Assembly (NCBI GenBank): GCA_022496205.1
Contig: WTXD01000029.1
Coordinates: 295,587 to 359,586, forward strand
DNA from: Gloeopeniophorella convolvens
Taxonomy: Eukaryota; Basidiomycota; Agaricomycetes; Russulales
Direction of reading: 5' to 3'
DNA length: 64,000 bases
Shown here: one piece after another, positions 48,188-58,298 of the stretch
Layout of the letters: each line of letters starts with the position of its first letter
Position numbering within the stretch: the first letter of the stretch is position 1
Notes under the pieces: generated by a model
The model's database searches: none
Seen by the model: the letters and a program-made list of their open reading frames with translations, nothing else
What the model was told of the DNA's origin: nothing
Translations under genes and position numbers: made by a program

Positions 48188-50167
48188 ATGATCGCTGTGC
48201 GCGATATCAATTCTGACTTGGCTACTGGCCTGTGAGTACGCGGATACGGTCGCCGTTATCTTCGGCGCGATGCTGACTTACTTTCGTTAGACTCGTCGGC
48301 TACATCCTCGCTCTGGTTCCTCTCGGTTAGTTTGGATTTCTGTTCAACGCATATAGTGTTAACCACAAGACCCTGTGATAGCCATTCTATATTATGACTA
48401 CCTGATCAGCCTATCCGACGAAGTGAAATACTTCTGGCTTTGGAGAACAAACGAACCCAACCGTGATGTTTCTATCCGGCCTCTACCAGGCTCACTTCAT
48501 AAGCAGAGGCGGCTCCCGTGGCAACGGCCGGACTGGATATCCTGCCTTTGTCTCGTAAATCGCTACGTCTCAACCATTGGGCATATCCCGATTATGAAGT
48601 CATACCTTGTGATGGGAGATCTTGCAGTAAGTTCTCTTCCTGATGCTTTGTCAACCAATTGATTTGCCTTTATGGATCAGTAGTAAGACGTTTCTCTTTT
48701 CAAAGTACATCTGATGCCCAACAAACAGTTGCCACCGACTATATGGCTATCATCAGTTCTTCGAGATGATCCTCCAAATTCTAGTTGCGGGTATGCACTC
48801 AGGGTTTTCTTGAGGTTATGCGCTGGCTCACGCAATGCCAGTCCTGTGCATCGTGCGCACGTACTCCTTGTATGGCGAGGAGCACCACATGTCTATGGGT
48901 TTGGCGAAGAAGCCCTGGAATGAGAGGACGCGCCATATCTTCAATTTCAGAAGACCGGTGTCTGGAAGACGCATTGTTCTCGTTCTCTTATGCTCGATTG
49001 TCTTCATCAGCGTCCTGAGTGGCTCCGTTCGTGCCTTTGCTTTGACTCACACGTCTGCATCGGGCCCAGCGTCAGCTTACCCGAGCTGTGTAGGTCCTGA
49101 TGATAATCGGAAGGGGCATACAAAGGGTCCAGGTGGCATCTCCGATCTATCCGGGATGCAGCGACCTGCTTTCCCTTCGCGAGGGTGCGTGTCATGCATG
49201 TGTTATTTTGGAGCTGTACCATTCACGTATTCTGCGCATCAGGGCCCGTCGTAAGTTGTACATAGACAACATGCCCGTGTGGACTGAGGCCGAGCATTGG
49301 TGCAGGCATAGTGCTCGCATGGGGCGGTGCGCTGGTGCTGGACACCGCTGTCTTCTTCTTAACAGTCCTCCGCGCGATTCAGTCGCGCAGAGACGCAGGC
49401 CCTGGTGCGTCCATCCGAGAAATGGCGTTTCTCCAGGTGATGGTACGCAATGGTCAGTCAGTATACTCCCTAGATGAGGAGATACCTAACGCGACCCCTA
49501 GGGACTCTGTACTTTGCGTACGCTCTATTTTGCGTGCCTTACTATGGGCTTGCTCAGAAGTGATAGTACCTTGTTCCTAGTAAACTTGGCGAACATCCTC
49601 ATGCTGTTGGTCAGTCCTTGTTTACATCGGCGCTTGCACAGAGGTTCATCTCCCTGTCTCGCCGCAGTTCGCGCCAGTGCGTGGCTCATCATAGCCACGA
49701 TAGTGCACCATGGTGCTGACCTTGTGACCCCGTGCTCAGCCATTACTGAAGGACTCTGTAACGACCATGACGAACGTGTTCGTCTGCATGATTTTCTGTG
49801 CGAATTCTTCTGTGTGCAGAACTCTCATTCCAGGCTTTCCACGACACTCATCTCACGCGTCATGCTCCACACGCGCGCCAAACATGCCAAGACCTGTAAA
49901 GAACGCAGGAGGAAAATGGTCATGCTCGCGAGCCCCGAGCTGGCGGATTGGGACAATGTCCGCGACGACCGGCAGCAGCGCAGCCAGGAAGACGCTTTCG
50001 GTCAGTACTTCAATCCTCGCCTTCACCCCGTAGGCTACTACCCGACCCGCTCACGCCCTGCGACCGCCAGGCATAGAATACATAGACCTGCAGCCGATAC
50101 CCCGCCAGAACTAGAGAGCCTGTTCAAGAGACCCCGTTTCTTTTTCTTCGGATCCAGGATCCATTAG
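48188..50167 (+). CDS. DUF6533-type multi-pass membrane protein, copy 1 (possibly frame-damaged)
   Basis: Confident exons: 48188-48231, 48291-48325, 48382-48626, microexon 48681-48682, 48729-48790, then from 48842. The N-terminus reads VGYILALVPLAILYYDYLIS, then LVNRYVSTIGHIPIMKSYLV, YHQFFEMILQILVA, VLCIVRTYSLYGEEHH, ALVLDTAVFFLTVLRA and VNLANILMLL, and the tail has TTLISRVMLHTRAKHAKTC. This is the DUF6533 layout (ILYYDYL motif, about seven membrane segments, receptor-like topology) common in Agaricomycetes; ligand and role unknown. Near 49180 it carries two extra bases relative to copies 2 and 3 just before the 8-nt microexon, which shifts the frame, so it may be non-functional. Some 3' junctions remain unresolved. 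Confidence 0.68.
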
Positions 50168-50708
50168 CGCGCGCTTCGGCGTACGGGACCCCAGTAGCAG
50201 TGCACGTACAAGAGACCCAATGTAGTACCTTCTAGGCTTGCCTCAGATGATGCAGTGAATCACTCGGTCGTATGATAGAATGCCAACGTGTCATTGAACA
50301 ATAATTGAACGATCTCGACCCCAACTGATCGACAAGTCCGACCGACTCCGAACGGCAGATGCCAGACGCAGTGCCAACCGTGAGGCACGGCCTTGACGAC
50401 GTGTTGTGGCTGAGATTGCTCCAGCGCCTACACCAGCAACCTGCCAGTTGTTCTCTGTTGTTCTACGCGGAACTATTGTCACTATGATGCGGGTTTGCTC
50501 CGGCCGCACAGGCTCCCTGCAGGCGGAACAGTCAACTCCACCGCCCGTTTTGGCAGCGCGCCAACTTCGTACTCTCGGTTGGCTCGTGTTGGCTCCCACA
50601 GTTACCTACATTTACACGCACAACCCACCTTTGTCTTAAAGGGACCCGGAACCATGAAGCTCCTTGCCTCAACCTTTGCCTATCATTGTCGCAGCGACCT
50701 CGCGCGCC
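50168..50708. other. Intergenic before the MuiA-like gene
   Basis: No gene seen; includes the promoter of the gene at 50709. Confidence 0.35.
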
Positions 50709-52745
50709 ATGGTGTCCGTGATCACCCTCCGCGCTGACAAGCATCCCATCAAGTCGGTGACTGTATTCAAGTCTGGCAAAGCGGAAATTGTCCACACCTT
50801 CAACATATCACTCCAGGTTAATGTTGTACCTCTATGTTTCCGGCCACCGTCACTGACAGAGAGTGCGCTCCACAGCCCAGTCAGAGCAAGGTGCAGATAC
50901 GCAGACTGCCAAGTTCAATTGAGACCGAGTCTACCCGTGTCACCGGTCTTGGAGATGCTCAGTTGTTCGACCTCGTCTGCTCTGTTGGCCGTGGAATAGA
51001 GGAAGTGGACCCCGAGAGCCCGGTCGAAGTCGTTCGCAAGCTGAATGCAAAGAAGGATGTCCTCCTGAAAGATCTTGATTCCCTGGATGCCATCTGCAAT
51101 ATCATGGAGAAGTATTCGAGGTCCCTGATCGGAGACGCTGTTTCTCCTAGGGAAACGGATGCTCTTTTTGAAAGGCTCCTGGCAAAATCGCGCGAAATAT
51201 CATCGACTCGGGCAGCTTTGAAAGAGGTCCTTCAGTTGTCGCGCCAGATCGACGTTCTGGCCTCCGCAGAGGTGAACAAGCAAGGCGAGGCGGATGGCGA
51301 AGTCGCCGTCGTGATTCTGGCCACACAAGCTATCACTGTTGAGCTGAAGTTGACCTATAGTGAGTACTATGGGGTCTCCTACCACTCTGGCTGCTGATGG
51401 TGCGTAGTTGTTCGTAATGCGACGTGGTCCCCAGCGTACGAACTCCACGCCACGACCGACGCAGGGACCCCAGTGCCGTTAGTCTCTCTTAACTACCGTG
51501 CACGCATCACACAGAGCATGGGTGAAGACTGGACAGACTCGCTCTTACGCTCGGCACTGGCGACATGAACATGATGAATCGGAGTATACCTACCCTCACC
51601 CCGACGAAGATCAGCCATCCTATGCCAGCGCCCTATCCTGATTTCTCGCGTCACAGCTCGGTGCCGATACCTGTTCAATTTGGACGACTCAGGGGACCAA
51701 AGCCAGCTCTGCACCACGGCGCCGCGTACGGGGCGTTCGGACAGCAATACAGTGAACTACAGCCTCCTTTCAACAATAAATATCGCACCATCACTCCTCA
51801 GCCTGGTACAGCCGCGTCACCCGGGGCCTTTGGCGGTCTACTTGGGGCGAGTGGGGATCGGTCCAGCACAGCGTCACCAGAACTCCCTGCAATGGGCTAC
51901 GCGCCACCAATACCACCACCGCATGCAGTCATGCGAAGACAGATATCATCACTTCCCAGCGACGAGTCCGACGTCAGGGTTGTCCCGGAGGAGGCGGTAC
52001 CATTTGCGGAGCCGGCGTCCGTCGTGCGTGAGAGCTCGCTCGCGGCGACGGTCGAAGGCGCGTCCGGTATCCCAAGCGACGACGCCCCGCACAAGGTCTC
52101 CGTCGCGGTGCTGCCATTCAACGCGACGATAGCGCACGTCGCGGTGCCCAAGGCGCAGCCCGCAGCGTACCGCGAGGCGCGCGTGACGAACACGAGCGAC
52201 TACCGCTTCCTCCCGGGCCCCGTGCGCGCGTTCGTCGACGACTCGTTCGTATCCGAGACCGCGCTGGAGGACGTCGCGCCTGGCGAGGCGTTCCGCTGCG
52301 CGCTCGGCGTCGGCCCCGCTGCGCAGGTGCGCTACGCGCGCACGGCGGCGCGCGCCGCCCGGGCGCTCCCGAGCCCGTTCGGCAAGCAGTGGGCGACGAC
52401 GTTGTGTGCTAGCCGCACGACTGTGGCGAACCGGCGTCCGTTCGCGCTGCACGCGTTCGTGCTGCGGGACTGCGTGCCGACCCCGGAGGACGAGGAGCGC
52501 GTCAGCATCGTCCTGCGCAGGCCACCCGGGTTTGCGGACTTGGAGCAGGGGAAGGACCTGGAGGTCGACGTGGATGGCAAGAAGAGGACGGTACGGTGGA
52601 GCAAGCTGGTGGAAGGGAAGGGCGGGAAGACGGCTTATTCGATTGGGCGTTCGAAGTTGGCGCAGGAGAGGAGGTCACGATCGAGGCTGGGTGGGACGTC
52701 TGCGTCAAAGCGCTCGCCTCGTTCCTGTGGGCTGAACACGAGTAG
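50709..52745 (+). CDS. MuiA-like protein (DUF4140/DUF4139); two apparent frameshifts
   Basis: Predicted join 50709-50816, 50876-51359, 51408-52745; introns 59 and 48 nt. The N-terminal part matches the DUF4140 pattern (IKSVTVFKSGKAEIVHTFNI, then QIRRLPSSIETESTRVTGLG with a helical hairpin). The C-terminal part matches DUF4139 (VRNATWSPAYELHATTDAGT, NYRARITQSMGEDWTD, then KVSVAVLPFNATIAHVAVPK, ARVTNTSDYRFLPGPVRAFV, EVTIEAGWDVCVKALASFLW). These proteins are named after a bacterial mucoidy inhibitor; their fungal role is not known. The reading frame slips by one base near 51538-51541 (GACTC|GCTCTT) and again near 52631 (GGGAAG|ACGGC). In both places one added C or G restores the conserved sequence through to TAG at 52743-52745. 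Otherwise no decay is visible. Confidence 0.82.
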
Positions 52746-53188
52746 CAATGAAAGGCCTCTAATTCCGCCGCGCGAATACGGAAGACAAAACGTGAGACAA
52801 CGTATGATAGGGCGTTACAGTGCATATGGGTCATGGTCCAGAGCAGAGCTATGTGTATCCGGGTCCGCATTCAAAACAATCAAGTTTGTCATGATTGCGC
52901 AAATGCCTCAGGTGCGCGCCACTAAATCGCGCCACACTGATCGACACCCATCAGGCTCGTGCGTCCCACTTTGTATGCACTACAGCTTTGTTATGCATCT
53001 TCGTCGACTGATGAGATGCTCGTGAACCACTTCGGCAGCCACGCCAGCATTCCCCACTTCCCGCGAAGATCCGCAGGAAATTAAGAAATAGACAAACCTT
53101 GCAGCAGAATGCCTCAGGGAGTGCACAAGTCGAGGCTGGAGAGCCTCAGTGTGCAAAGCTGCCGCCGCTAGCTATTTGCAGAATCACC
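52746..53188. other. Intergenic between the MuiA-like gene and the duplicated block
   Basis: No gene seen; the repeat unit listed next begins at about 53189. Confidence 0.35.
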
Positions 53189-53545
53189 GGAAATTTTGCG
53201 TTCCGGCGCTCTCTGCTCCGGACCGACTATATGTAAATCTGTGTACTGTAATGGGAACAACGTAACTGGGCCTAGGGATATGATGGTAATTCGAAGTAGT
53301 TGTAACGTGTCTCGGCGTACAGAACCCCGTGTGGCCGCAAAAGTCGATCTAACCTCCTTCCTCTGTGTACCTTTCTCAGCCCGCGTTTCCTTCTCTCCCT
53401 CGGAACGCTCCCCTAGCCGTGCGCAAAGTCATCGTGGTCCCGCGCTATAACCGCGGTCGGCGGCAGCCGACCGGCCTCGCACTGGGAAGTTCGAATGAGC
53501 TTGAGGCCCACTAACCTCCACCATTCGCCCACCATCAACCCTGCT

Positions 53546-55460
53546 ATGATCGCGGTGGGCAATACTACCATCTCTGACGTGGGTACTGACCTGTGAGCGT
53601 GCGGATACGGTCGCCGTTGCCTCGGAGCGATGCTGACTTGCTTTGTCAGACTTGTCGGCTACATCCTCTCTCTGATTCCTCTCGGTTCGTTCTTCTTTCT
53701 TTCTGTTCTGCGCATAATTAACCACAAGGACCTGGGATAGTCATTCTATATTATGACTACCTGATCAGCCTACCCGACGAAGTGGAATACTTCTGGCTCT
53801 GGAGACAAAACGAGCTCGACCGTGATGGTTCGACACAGCCTCTACCGGGCTCACATCATAAGCAGACCCGGTGGCTAGGCCTGCCGCGGCGGCTGGACTG
53901 GGTATCCTACCTTTGTCTCGTGAATCGCTACGTCTCGATCATTGGGCATATCCCGGTTATGAAGTCATACCTTGTAATGGGAGACCTTGCAGTGAGTTCC
54001 CTTTCTATGCTCTGACAACCGACTGATTTGATTCTATCAGTAGTAAGACATCCCCCTTTGCAAAGTACGTCTGATGCTCAACAAACCCATACGACCAGCT
54101 GCCACCGGCTATGGGGATACCATCAGTTCTTCGAGATCATCCTCCAAATGCTGGTTGCGCGTATGCTGCATACTAAGTTATGTGACGTTGTATGCTGGCT
54201 TACGCATATCCAGTCCTCTGCATCGTGCGCACGTACTCCTTGTATGACGAAGAGCACCACATGTCCGTGGGTCTGGCGAGGACGCCCTGGAACGAGAGGA
54301 TGCGCCACATCATCGATTTCAGAAGGCCGATATCCGGAAGACGCATTGTCCTGATACTCCTATGCCCGATCGTCTTCATCAACTTCTTGGGTAGCGTTGT
54401 TCGTACTTCTGCTTCAGCTTCTCGTCTACGTCATGCCTGGTGTCAACTTATTCGAGCTCTGTAGGTCCTCACGATAGCCGGAAAGGGCCTACAGGGTGTC
54501 CAGATAGCATCTCCAATCTTTCCGGGGTGCGGCGATCTGCTTTCCCGGCAAGGGTGCGTGTCATGTGCCGTTTCCGATCTGTGCTATTTACATGTTCCGT
54601 ACGTCAGAGCTCGTCGTAAGTTGCACACGGGTAACGTGTTTCTGGGGACTGAGGCTGAGAATTGATACAGGCGTAGCGCTCGCATGGAGCGGTGCGCTGG
54701 TGCTGGACACCACTGTCTTCTTCTTGACGGTCTTCCGTGCAATTCAGTCGCGTAGAGACGCAGGCCCTGGTGCATCTATCCGGGAAATGGAGTTTCTCCA
54801 AGTGATGGTACGCAATGGTCAGTGCAACATATCCCTTAAACGAGGAGATACCTAACGGAAGACCCCTAGGGACTTTATACTTTGTGTAAGCTTTCTCTTG
54901 CGTATCTAACTATGGGCTCGCTCAGAAGCAATAGCCCCTTATTCCTAGTGAACCTAGCGAACATCCTCATGTTATTGGTCAGTCCACTCGCTGCATCGAT
55001 ACCCATGCAGAGGTTCATTATTCCTGTCTCGCTGCAGTTAGCGCCCGTGCGTGGCTTGTCATAATCACAGCAGTGCTCCATAGCGTTGACCATTTCTATC
55101 CCGCAACAGCCACTACTGAAGGATTCAGCAACGACTATGACAAACGTGTTCGTCTGCATACTTTCGTGCTAAGAGTCCTATGTCCATGACGGTCATCACA
55201 GGCTATCCACGACGTTGATCTCGCGCATCATGCTCCACACGCGCGCCAAACACGCCAAGGCCTGTGAAGAACGCAGGAGGAAATCGGCCAGGTTCGCAAG
55301 TCCCGAGCTAGAAGGCCGAGACAACGCCTCCGACGAACGACAGCAACGCAGCCAGGAGGACGCCCTCGGTCCGTCGTTAGCCTCGCCCCGCTCGCTACTA
55401 CTTACCCCGCTGACTCTTGGCGACAGATTACGTAGACCGCAGGTTCCCCGCCGGGACTAG
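53546..55460 (+). CDS. DUF6533-type multi-pass membrane protein, copy 2
   Basis: Exons I can support: 53546-53592, 53650-53684, 53741-53991, microexon 54041-54042, 54099-54160, from 54214, an exon ending at 54553, microexon 54608-54615, from 54671, and a last exon ending at 55460. Motifs as in copy 1: LVGYILSLIPLVILYYDYLI, LVNRYVSIIGHIPVMKSYLV, LWGYHQFFEIILQMLVA, CIVRTYSLYDEEHH, ALAWSGALVLDTTVFFLTVF and LISRIMLHTRAKHAKACEER. One base is missing near 54420 compared with copy 3, and a junction between ~54380 and ~54500 is unresolved, so the loop before SPIFPGCGDLLSR is uncertain. Probably a receptor-like or transport-like membrane protein; function unknown. Confidence 0.68.
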
Positions 55461-56526
55461 AGAGTCCGCTGGAGGTTCTGGTGCATGTGCACCCTCGTGA
55501 TCTCTCTTTGCGTCGCTCTTATCTCCTACTTCGTGGTCCACTATTCTACCGCTGAAGAGATCCTATATAATACCTCCTAGACCTTAATAACTCAATAGAT
55601 CCTTCAATCGCATGGCGAGCGGAAGTCACGCGTAGCCGTGAATTCGCGGATGGCTGCCCCATGGCGGGCAGCGCTCAAAACGGGTCATAGGGAAACATAA
55701 ATACATCTGTCTATGCCGCGGCGCGGCGTTCTCCTGTGGCTCCGCCGCGTCGCGCGCGATTTGCTCTGCGACCTCGCGCGCGTCCGCCACACCACCCTCG
55801 TCGTGTGGCCCTACGACCGCCTCAGTCACATCCTCCTCCTGCGCATCCTCCTCGGGCTCGGGGTGTGCACGCGGGGCCTCCTCGGGCGGCGGCAGCCCGA
55901 TGAATCCGAGGCGCCGCACTGCTACAAGCGCGTGCTACCGAATGGCACCACACCCACCGATACCTACCCTCGTGCACGAGCTCAAGGCACGCCGCTGCAT
56001 TGACCCCTGCCATTTGGCCTTGATTTGGCCATCATTTTTTTTTCTTTTAAATAGCCACGCGTCAAACCACCGGAAATTTCGCGTTCCGGCGCTCTCCGCT
56101 CCGGACCGACTGGATCGTAACGGCGTCGTACAGGACCCCGTGTAGCACTCGGAGTCGGTCTAACCCCCTTCATCTGTGTGCCTTTCCCAGCCCGCGTTTC
56201 CTTCTCTCCCACTTACTCCCCTAGACATGCGCGGGGTCATCGCGTTTTCCGGGCTAGTATTGCGTATCGCGGTATGCCGCATCAAGGTTATCGTGAATGA
56301 TTGTAGGTGTTGTACCTACGCCTTCGGGGCGACGTCGGGGTGACCGGATATAGAATGCATGTGTCTGTGATACATGGGGGCGTTATCGTGTCTTCACACT
56401 TCCCTTGCATCGCGGGCCCGCGCTCCGCGGTCGGCGGTGGCCGGACGGCCTCGCGCTGGATTTGAATGAGCTTCAGGCCCACTGGCCAGCACTAATCTTC
56501 ACTATTCGCCCACCTTTACCTTTGCC
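55461..56526. other. Spacer between DUF6533 copies 2 and 3, with the duplication joint
   Basis: Contains the 3' flank of copy 2, the truncated MOB-tail fragment (55713-55912), the joint between the two duplicated units (about 55913-56070, including a T-rich run at 56034-56045) and the promoter of copy 3. No complete gene. Confidence 0.5.
55713..55912 (-). pseudogene. Duplicated 3' fragment of the MOB-like gene tail
   Basis: Minus-strand reading gives LPPPEEAPRAHPEPEEDAQE ... VAEQIARDAAEPQENAAP, nearly identical to the last ~65 residues of the gene at 58715-60471. It lacks everything upstream: at ~55905 the similarity stops abruptly (gcagcccgatgaatcc against gcagctcgatgatggt). The original stop is lost, so the frame would run on. 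A by-product of the segmental duplication, without its own promoter. Confidence 0.8.
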
Positions 56527-58298
56527 ATGATCGCGGTGCGCAATACCATCTCTGGCATGGGTGCCGGCCTGTGAGCGTGCGGATACGGTCGCCGTTGCCC
56601 TTGGCACAATGCTGACTTACTTTTGTTAGATTTATCGACTACATCCTCTGTCTGATTCCCATCGGTCCGTTTTCCTTTCTTTATGTTCTGCACATAGTGT
56701 TAACCACGAGGACCTGTGATAGTCATTCTATATTATGACTACCTGATCAGCCTATCCGACGAAGTAGAATACTTCTGGCTCTGGGGGCGAAACGGTCTCG
56801 ACCATGATGTTTCCACACAGCCTCTAGTACCGGGCTCACATCGTAAGCAGACTCGGCGGCTCCCGCGGCTGCGGCTGGACTGGATATCCTGCCTTTGTCT
56901 CGTAAATCGTTATGTCGCGATCGTTGGGCATATTCCGGTTATGAAGTCATATCTTGTAATGGGAGACCTTGCAGTGAGTTCCCTTTCTGTGCTCTGATAA
57001 CCAACTAATGTAATCTTATCAGTAGTAAGATGTCCCCCTGATCAGGATACGTCTGACGCTCAACAAACCCATACGATCAGCTGCCAGCAGCTATGGGTCT
57101 ACCATCAATTCTTCGAGATCATCCTTCAAATGCTGGTTGGGGGTATGTGCATACTAAGATTATCTGACGTTGTGTGCTGGCTTACGTATCTCCAGTCCTC
57201 TGCATCGTGCGCACGTACTCCTTGTATAACGAGGGGCACCACACCACCGTGGGTCTGGCGAGGAAGCCCTGGAACGAGAGGATGCGCCACATCATCGATT
57301 TCAGAAGGCCGATATCCGGAAGACGCATTGTCCTGATACTCCTATGCCCGATCGCCTTCATCAACTTCTTTGGTAACGTCGTTCGTGCTTCTGCTTTGGC
57401 TTCTACGTCTGCGTCGGACCTAGTATCAACTTACTCGAGCTGTGTAGGTCCTGATGATAGCTGGAAGGCGCATACAGGGTGTCCAGGTGACATCTCCAAT
57501 CTTTCCGGGATGCAGCGATCTGCTTTCTCAGCAAGGGTGCGTGTCATGTGCCGTTTCCGATCTGTGCTATTTACATGTCCCGTGCATCAGAGCTCTCCGT
57601 ACGTTAGACACGGGCAGCGCGTTTATGTGGACTGAGACTGAGCATTGCCACAGGCGTAGCATTCGCATGGAGCGGTGCGCTGGTGTTGGACACCACTGTC
57701 TTCTTCTTGACAGTCTTCCGTGCAATTCAGTCGTGTAGAGACACAGGACCTGGTACATCCATTCGGGAAATGCCAGTCCTCCAAGTGATGGTACGCAATG
57801 GTTAGTTCGATATATTCCCTAAATACTATGGCACCTAACGTGACCCCTAGGGACTTTGTACTTTGTGTGAGCTTTCGCTTGCGTATTCTACTTTGGGCTT
57901 GCTCAGAAGCAATAGTGTCTTGTTCATAGTGAACCTAGCAAACATTCTTATGCTGTTGGTTAGTCCATTCGCTGCATCGGCACTCATCCAGGGGTTCATT
58001 TTTCCTGTCTCGCTGCAGTTAGCGCCCGTGTGTGGCTCATCACAACCACGACAGTGCACCATGGTGCTGACCATTTCTACCCCGCAACCAGCCTATATTG
58101 AAGAACTCAGCAACGACTATGACAAACGTGTTCGTCTACATACTTTCGTGCGCGGGGTCCTATGTGCATAACAGTTATCCCAGGCTATCCGCGACGTTGA
58201 TCTCACGCGTCATGCTCCACACGCGCGCCAAATACGCTAAGACATGTGAAGAACGCAATGAGAAAACACTCAACTTCGTGAGCTCCCTGGCGGGCTAG
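56527..58298 (+). CDS. DUF6533-type multi-pass membrane protein, copy 3
   Basis: Best preserved of the three. Supported exons: 56527-56570, 56630-56664, 56723-56973, microexon 57023-57024, 57081-57142, from 57196, an exon ending at 57536, microexon 57591-57598, from 57654, and a 3' part ending at 58298. Motifs: FIDYILCLIPIVILYYDYLI, NRYVAIVGHIPVMKSYLVMG, LWVYHQFFEIILQMLVG, LCIVRTYSLYNEGHH, SPIFPGCSDLLSQQ, ALRVAFAWSGALVLDTTVFF, LVNLANILMLLV and LISRVMLHTRAKYAKTCEER. Introns flanking both microexons are 49-56 nt. The order (ILYYDYL, a Cys before SxxxR, AW...D in the fifth helix) fits DUF6533 proteins. The exon 5/6 boundary (~57370-57470) is unresolved. Function unknown. Confidence 0.72.

Follow-up and report, generated by a model that had tools for sequence, protein, structure and literature searches.

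A conserved two-nucleotide coding exon predicted in the DUF6533 gene family of Gloeopeniophorella convolvens

A 64,000-nucleotide (nt) stretch of DNA from the wood-decay fungus Gloeopeniophorella convolvens (Russulales; contig WTXD01000029.1, positions 295,587 to 359,586), here called the window, carries three paralogous DUF6533 genes, each with a predicted coding exon of just two bases, TA, between two introns of ordinary size. Comparison across the genome suggests, with a probability that we put at about 96%, that the DUF6533 family of predicted seven-helix membrane proteins has a real and ancient coding exon of 2 nt, which is probably constitutive. Splicing itself, its order and constitutive inclusion of the exon are features that we infer from genomic sequence.

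The three genes (copies 1, 2 and 3, all on the + strand) match the Pfam model of DUF6533 (PF20151) at C212:343964, 349323 and 352305, with 26.8-28 bits against a cut-off of 24.1. Exon 3 of copy 1 (48382..48626, from sequence and gene model) ends GAT CTT GCA in phase 0 and is followed by intron 3 (48627..48680; 54 nt, GTAAGT..CAG), the exon TA (48681..48682), which would provide the first two bases of Tyr TAT, intron 4 (48683..48728; 46 nt, GTAAGA..CAG) and exon 5 (48729..48790), which opens T TGC CAC CGA .., its conserved Cys marking the beginning of the predicted third transmembrane helix (TM3). Copy 2 has exon 3 (53741..53991) ending GAC CTT GCA, intron 3 (53992..54040; 49 nt, GTGAGT..CAG), TA (54041..54042), intron 4 (54043..54098; 56 nt, GTAAGA..CAG) and exon 5 (54099..54160; C TGC CAC CGG ..). 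The same order recurs in copy 3: exon 3 (56723..56973; GAC CTT GCA), intron 3 (56974..57022; 49 nt, GTGAGT..CAG), TA (57023..57024), intron 4 (57025..57080; 56 nt, GTAAGA..CAG) and exon 5 (57081..57142; C TGC CAG CAG ..). All three TA exons were located both in the sequence and by a frame-aware scan. A first-pass annotation, made from the sequence of the window, had proposed this microexon, and our analysis reproduces exactly its three TA positions, the six intron sizes, phase 0 upstream and the single base (T, C and C) that precedes TGC downstream.

A DNA search of the same assembly recovered two further paralogues with a TA exon, at C124:28698-29111 (introns of 49+56 nt) and C112:610023-610435 (52+48 nt), which together with the window copies make five distinct TA copies (c1-c5); near-identical copies on C124 and C289 were counted as duplicates. 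These extra copies of the window genes (C212:343.9k-352.7k) lie at C289:11k and C124:7.9k-11.4k and are probably allelic or duplicated contig ends. All of c1-c5 have AG-TA-GTAAGA between two ordinary introns. The annotation's claim that the element is conserved against diverged introns is borne out, as ATCAGTAGTAAGA is identical in 5/5 copies and the intron interiors are 73% identical pairwise. Gene models that include TA give ..MGDLA-Y-CHRLWGYHQFFEIILQML.. with no stop in the exons that follow, and their spacing, GHIP-x13-Cys, is that of P0011, P0013, P0017, P0018 and P0024. The ratio of non-synonymous to synonymous substitution rates (dN/dS) in exons 5+6, behind TA, is 0.24-0.69 (10 pairs), which suggests that the reading frame set by TA is in use. 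Because they are recent duplicates, the three window copies would by themselves be weak evidence.

The case is therefore best judged across the family. A search of the genome with the DUF6533 model gave 58 matches, and the loci scanned for the exon (n = 54) comprise c1-c4 from these matches, c5 from the DNA search and 49 others. We dropped L049 and L062, whose alignment at the site is not clear, along with the duplicates of c1, c2 and c3 on other contigs; the near-duplicates L010/L011 and L026/L027 were retained. The other DUF6533 genes are often less than 50% identical to the window copies, and the same architecture is found among them: a phase-0 intron, AG-2 nt-GT, a phase-2 intron, one base and the conserved Cys codon. 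From an anchor Arg-Tyr codon, the scan required a GTNNG donor, an intron of 38-180 nt, AG and k bases, then a second GTNNG donor, an intron of 38-95 nt, AG, one base and a Cys codon; it additionally demanded a reading frame free of stops.

A spacer of k = 2 succeeds in 43 of the 54 loci (31 when an additional upstream intron is disallowed), while every other spacer from 0 to 20 succeeds in at most 7 (k = 7, 7 loci; k = 13, 6 loci). In dinucleotide-preserving shuffles of the downstream DNA, which covered spacers 0-5 and 8, k = 2 was satisfied by a mean of 0.15 loci (maximum 1 in 20 rounds). Single linkage groups the 43 loci into 24 clusters at 50% amino-acid identity and into 30 at 60%; the conservation first noticed in three paralogues thus reaches well past recent duplicates, as a conservation of exon length, phase and position and not of sequence. 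The dinucleotide is TA in 13 loci, TT in 11, CT in 7, TC in 5, CA, AG and GT in 2 each and AC in 1. Across the second intron, the next base is C or T for each of the 13 TA exons (Tyr, never a stop), and all four bases occur there for the other 30 exons. Since TA never precedes A or G, and the k = 2 count is unchanged at 43 with the stop filter off, the three bases act like a single codon divided by two introns.

Decay of these genes, with relic introns, a lost frame and no in-frame translation downstream, could account for the small indels in the window copies (e.g., a 2-nt difference near the copy 1 intron-7 donor) and for the departure of L010 from its near-copy L011 just ahead of the second acceptor. 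Both the dN/dS values behind the exon and the retention of splice sites in 43 loci of 24 clusters argue against it, and we give decay practically no credence.

Two claims of the first-pass annotation about the frame held without change. Direct joining of donor 1 to acceptor 2, the path taken by the public model P0036, loses the frame, and intron 2, if kept after removal of intron 1, leads immediately to TAG TAA in all five TA copies. The annotation had also stated that only inclusion of TA keeps the frame; TA is in frame and colinear with relatives, but ‘only’ was too strong, as there are other stop-free in-frame paths. These include the variants of an explanation in which a single intron uses another donor or acceptor and the AG-NN-GT within it is a decoy. 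Every copy does have such in-frame paths (2, 5, 16, 5 and 8 in c1-c5, with acceptors enumerated up to 15 nt into exon 5), and six of the eight species models that span the site use one in-frame intron. The individual variants fare poorly. Joining GCA to GTC/TTC TTC GAG, as in P0001/P0002, would lose YCHxLYGYHQ and with it the conserved Cys, and copy 3 has CAA, and c5 TGG, where the acceptor would be needed; the P0005 path, which adds twelve residues (DTSDAQQTHTIS), is found in copy 3 only; P0051/P0052 move the donor downstream. One path, in which the last CAG is paired with a GTCATA donor within exon 3, is common to all five copies with ten residues deleted, but this donor is poor. Of the 43 loci, 10 could use a single intron of compatible phase with a GTNNG donor, at scattered offsets of -97 to +53 (32 if any GT is allowed). 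The public models are mutually inconsistent, and single-intron variants explain neither the AG-2 nt-GT blocks of 43/54 loci nor model P0131, described below. We consider a single intron very improbable. We also rejected an alternative 2-nt path with AC or AT (AGTAAG-AC-GTTTCT and the like), which c1, c3, c4 and c5 could use but c2 could not, and whose donor is poor.

Inclusion of TA is the sole predicted path that is common to the five copies, has consensus splice sites and is colinear with relatives. At the DNA level, its properties are those of an ultra-small (<3 nt) coding microexon: the gap between acceptor and donor is below 3 nt and is flanked by introns of ordinary size, and inclusion is required for the reading frame, apart from other in-frame paths in single copies and the one poor-donor path of c1-c5. 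An aligner uninformed of the exon, given proteins of other species as queries, picked DLA-Y-C in 14 of 25 query-copy pairs, with the 2-nt exon chosen in 5/5 copies for P0011 and likewise in 5/5 for P0013. The remaining 11 trials took other paths; the queries P0006, P0008 and P0009 have longer loops at the site.

Another explanation would leave the two bases out of the mRNA, the site being a stwintron or a zero-length recursive splice site and the frame being restored, for example, by +1 ribosomal frameshifting. Abutting intron pairs in fungi are a known setting of stwintrons (PMC5639578), and direct joining would indeed require a +1 shift. However, GTAAGA already makes a full second donor, and GCA-TA rebuilds none, so that the definition given in PMC5639578, one intron interrupting the splice signal of another, does not describe these genes. 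Since both introns are complete and the two bases would be kept, we do not class the site as a stwintron. Without the two bases, each of the 43 loci would require frameshifting, and the regular protein spacing in relatives demands one residue at the site. Loss of TA from the mRNA has, like decay, next to no probability in our view.

Among the public proteins of G. convolvens, 11 are in the matches listed; eight span the site and were mapped back to DNA, and P0003, P0004 and P0031 begin downstream of it. One model has the exon: P0131 (BC834DRAFT_901295, locus L004), with exon lengths of 35, 170, 57, 2, 62 .., in which the 2-nt exon is the CT predicted by the scan. No single-intron path from any phase-compatible GTNNG donor was found at this locus. 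The 57-nt exon of P0131, directly ahead of the 2-nt exon, is additional (loci L003 and L004, C356), and with phase 0 at either end it could be included or left out with no effect on the frame.

Several observations weigh against a genuine 2-nt exon. The other seven of the eight site-spanning models are without it, each in its own way: ten residues are dropped in P0001 and P0002, twelve are added in P0005 (copy 3), in P0036 (which maps to copy 2) donor 1 is joined to acceptor 2 with loss of the frame, the donor of P0051 and P0052 lies further downstream (Val instead of Tyr and three extra residues), and P0130 uses a different acceptor. No transcript-derived protein of G. convolvens is among the matches listed (at least 120 of 194). 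The scan rules were drawn up once inspection of the same loci by eye had revealed the pattern, and the spacer and shuffle controls share these rules. The intron 1 donor picked by the scan is not always the natural one (e.g., L012, L016, L018 and L030), strict CTRAY branch sites occur in intron 1 of 20/43 and intron 2 of 21/43 loci, and several intron 2 acceptors are AAG. Finally, the scan missed 11 of the 54 loci. As regards the models, most of those made by gene finding appear to miss the 2-nt exon and to garble the predicted proteins.

The 11 missed loci are of several kinds. L041, L042 and L044 (C350) are intronless at the site (..ESDC or ..EADC uninterrupted), and L043 and L047 have a single phase-2 intron. 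In L043, judged by eye, intron 1 was apparently lost precisely, with the two bases left on the upstream exon. L054 (C124:116439 region) has by eye a 5-nt exon, AG-AACAT-GTGAGC, and its Cys is replaced. L006 (weak donor) and L013 (one extra codon) fit by eye and fail the scan rules, and L010, L024 and L048 are degenerate or unclear. In L048 (C79:137120 region), the acceptor ahead of the would-be TC exon is AT instead of AG by eye, and this is possibly a dead gene.

A quick, midpoint-rooted tree of 48 rows (L027, L005, L028 and L056 were omitted as short or duplicate; L006 and L013 were marked as 2-nt by eye, though uncounted by the scan) has the 2-nt exon on both sides of the midpoint split, and for this reason the exon is probably ancestral. 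The intronless L041, L042 and L044 form one group (support 99), which the single-intron L047 joins (81), and L043 groups with L046 and L048. Most simply, this distribution would reflect an ancestral presence of the 2-nt exon followed by its loss on two or three occasions.

For other species, the comparison covered proteins. We aligned 165 public proteins, the 11 of G. convolvens included; not evaluable were 2 of 30 from short contigs, 3 of 124 annotated and 3 of the 11 own-species proteins. Annotated proteins of other species are irregular at the site in 65 of 121 cases. The corresponding counts for four control sites are 13, 11, 7 and 5 of 121, and two of these control sites span the 16-nt and 9-nt exons described below. 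Short contigs without annotation (1.2-4.3 kb; sources lgn/jgi) yielded open reading frames (ORFs) that we took as assembled transcripts because they are uninterrupted; 27 of 28 are regular at the site. As the annotated and short-contig sets differ in species, and the range called ‘regular’ was fixed after the alignment had been seen, this comparison across species is supporting, not decisive. A scan of viral_contigs with the pattern gave 18 matches, none of them a relative. In a mostly Lactarius group (P0007, P0065, P0067, P0071, P0072, P0077, P0078, P0079, P0081, P0082, P0087 and P0101), the Cys stands several residues earlier (..SCEPQNAW.. and the like); this position looks genuine, as the short-contig protein P0072 has it too.

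The AlphaFold model me557d040c941 of the relative P0056 (mean predicted local distance difference test score, pLDDT, 80.5) has eight helical segments, which can be read as seven membrane helices, one of them broken once. The residue coded over the 2-nt exon is at the start of the third helix, adjoining the Cys. This Cys follows the exon in 39/39 relatives, and the loop that joins helices 4 and 5 contains another Cys, again in 39/39; the 39 were selected for regular spacing at the site, and invariance of the first Cys is thus partly by choice. In a fold search with P0056, the 50 matches listed are all G-protein-coupled receptors, Ste2 included, with weak template-modelling (TM) scores of at most 0.54 and with 0 of 665 at E <= 0.001. 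With seven modelled helices, these two Cys and weak fold matches, DUF6533 proteins may resemble G-protein-coupled receptors. SNB1 of Coprinopsis, which has the same domain and seven predicted helices, is described as part of a gene family required for fruiting-body patterning (PMC10949477).

In the mechanism that we propose, two introns would interrupt the coding sequence at the codon ahead of the TM3-start Cys, one of phase 0 directly before this codon and one of phase 2 behind its second base. They are short introns, mostly of ~45-85 nt, a size range that fungi recognise by intron definition. In Pezizomycotina, splice sites are described as pairing in this way (PMC5639578). Acceptor and donor complexes bound together on two bases would overlap, and because an acceptor bound by U2/U2AF and a donor bound by U1 could not be accommodated together, the introns are most likely removed in succession; the shortness of each makes intron definition with stepwise removal likely. 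The first ligation would then restore a normal context for the second intron. As skipping of the two bases shifts the frame and retention of intron 2 gives TAG TAA, only exact splicing would yield a full-length protein, and the exon would act as an all-or-nothing reading-frame checkpoint, whether or not this is put to regulatory use.

We lean towards the view that the exon predates the DUF6533 radiation and is present in thousands of genes of mushroom-forming fungi. If so, this would be the largest known natural set of sub-codon exons, with both bases variable; stepwise splicing would be obligate in every gene, the family would be systematically misannotated, and the reading-frame checkpoint may tie the output of a receptor-like protein to splicing fidelity.

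The genes have other very small exons. In copy 2 these are an 8-nt exon, AGCTCGTC (54608..54615; phase 2 / phase 1), a second tiny family-conserved exon, with a counterpart in the public models P0001, P0002, P0131 and others, a 16-nt exon, GGACTTTATACTTTGT (54870..54885; GTLYF), and a 9-nt exon, TTAGCGCCC (55038..55046; LAP), all + strand. The 8-, 16- and 9-nt exons are at conserved places and, unlike the 2-nt exon, are included in most species models that reach that far. Copy 1 has two additional bases ahead of the intron 7 donor (~49160-49190), and its frame is preserved if a donor four bases further (GTGTCA) is used or the 8-nt exon is skipped; in the public model P0002 at copy 1, intron 6 is moved and exon 7 is read in a different frame. 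A suspected frameshift in copy 2 was rejected, as the position falls inside an intron.

Searches of open-licence literature turned up no 2-nt exon described for DUF6533 genes or for a basidiomycete, and the passages on very small exons in PMC13149111 and PMC8042270 name none of 2 nt. As far as that literature shows, what is new is a 2-nt exon of fixed length and place and free sequence in dozens of divergent paralogues. Dozens of loci serve as natural replicates of an exon with no space for both splice-site complexes at once, its length fixed at two and its sequence free, through which minimal exon size, the order of intron removal and intron definition become directly testable. The exon also offers an explanation for why public models of the family break at one spot ahead of the conserved Cys, which bears on any study of DUF6533 receptor-like proteins.

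The size of the exon is not a record, because one-base exons are known in plants and Fusarium. The 1-nt exon of Fusarium CYP621A, reported in 2026, is an identical G in all 24 genes and is confirmed by RNA reads (PMC12940212). Like the DUF6533 exon, it is fungal, frame-obligatory, located in a conserved motif between two ordinary introns, hard to annotate and noticed by a phase mismatch; it differs in being one base in one P450 subfamily, whereas the DUF6533 exon has two free bases in dozens of divergent paralogues and is predicted from DNA. Exons of 2-5 bp are cited for Arabidopsis, Drosophila and human in the same source (PMC12940212). The 1-nt exons of plant APC11 and VPS55, with RNA and reverse-transcription PCR (RT-PCR) evidence (PMC4674806, PMC8831610), share ultra-small size, deep conservation, some intronless copies and wide misannotation with the DUF6533 exon, but are of one base and in few-copy genes. 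Among basidiomycetes, the P450 genes of Phanerochaete chrysosporium, with a shortest exon of 6 bp (PMC1184071), are likewise a family with many tiny exons and frequent 45-55 bp introns; their microexons are spread over families, in contrast to the one conserved site in DUF6533 genes. With stwintrons, as described in PMC5639578, the DUF6533 site would share two fungal U2 introns removed sequentially by intron definition, but in a stwintron one intron interrupts the splice signal of the other, and here two bases would be retained between complete introns. Animal recursive splice sites and recursive splicing exons (RS-exons), as they are described, also have an acceptor adjoining a donor, with stepwise removal; RS-exons rebuild a donor at the 5' end of the exon, often within long introns, whereas the predicted DUF6533 exon lies between short introns and consists of coding bases.

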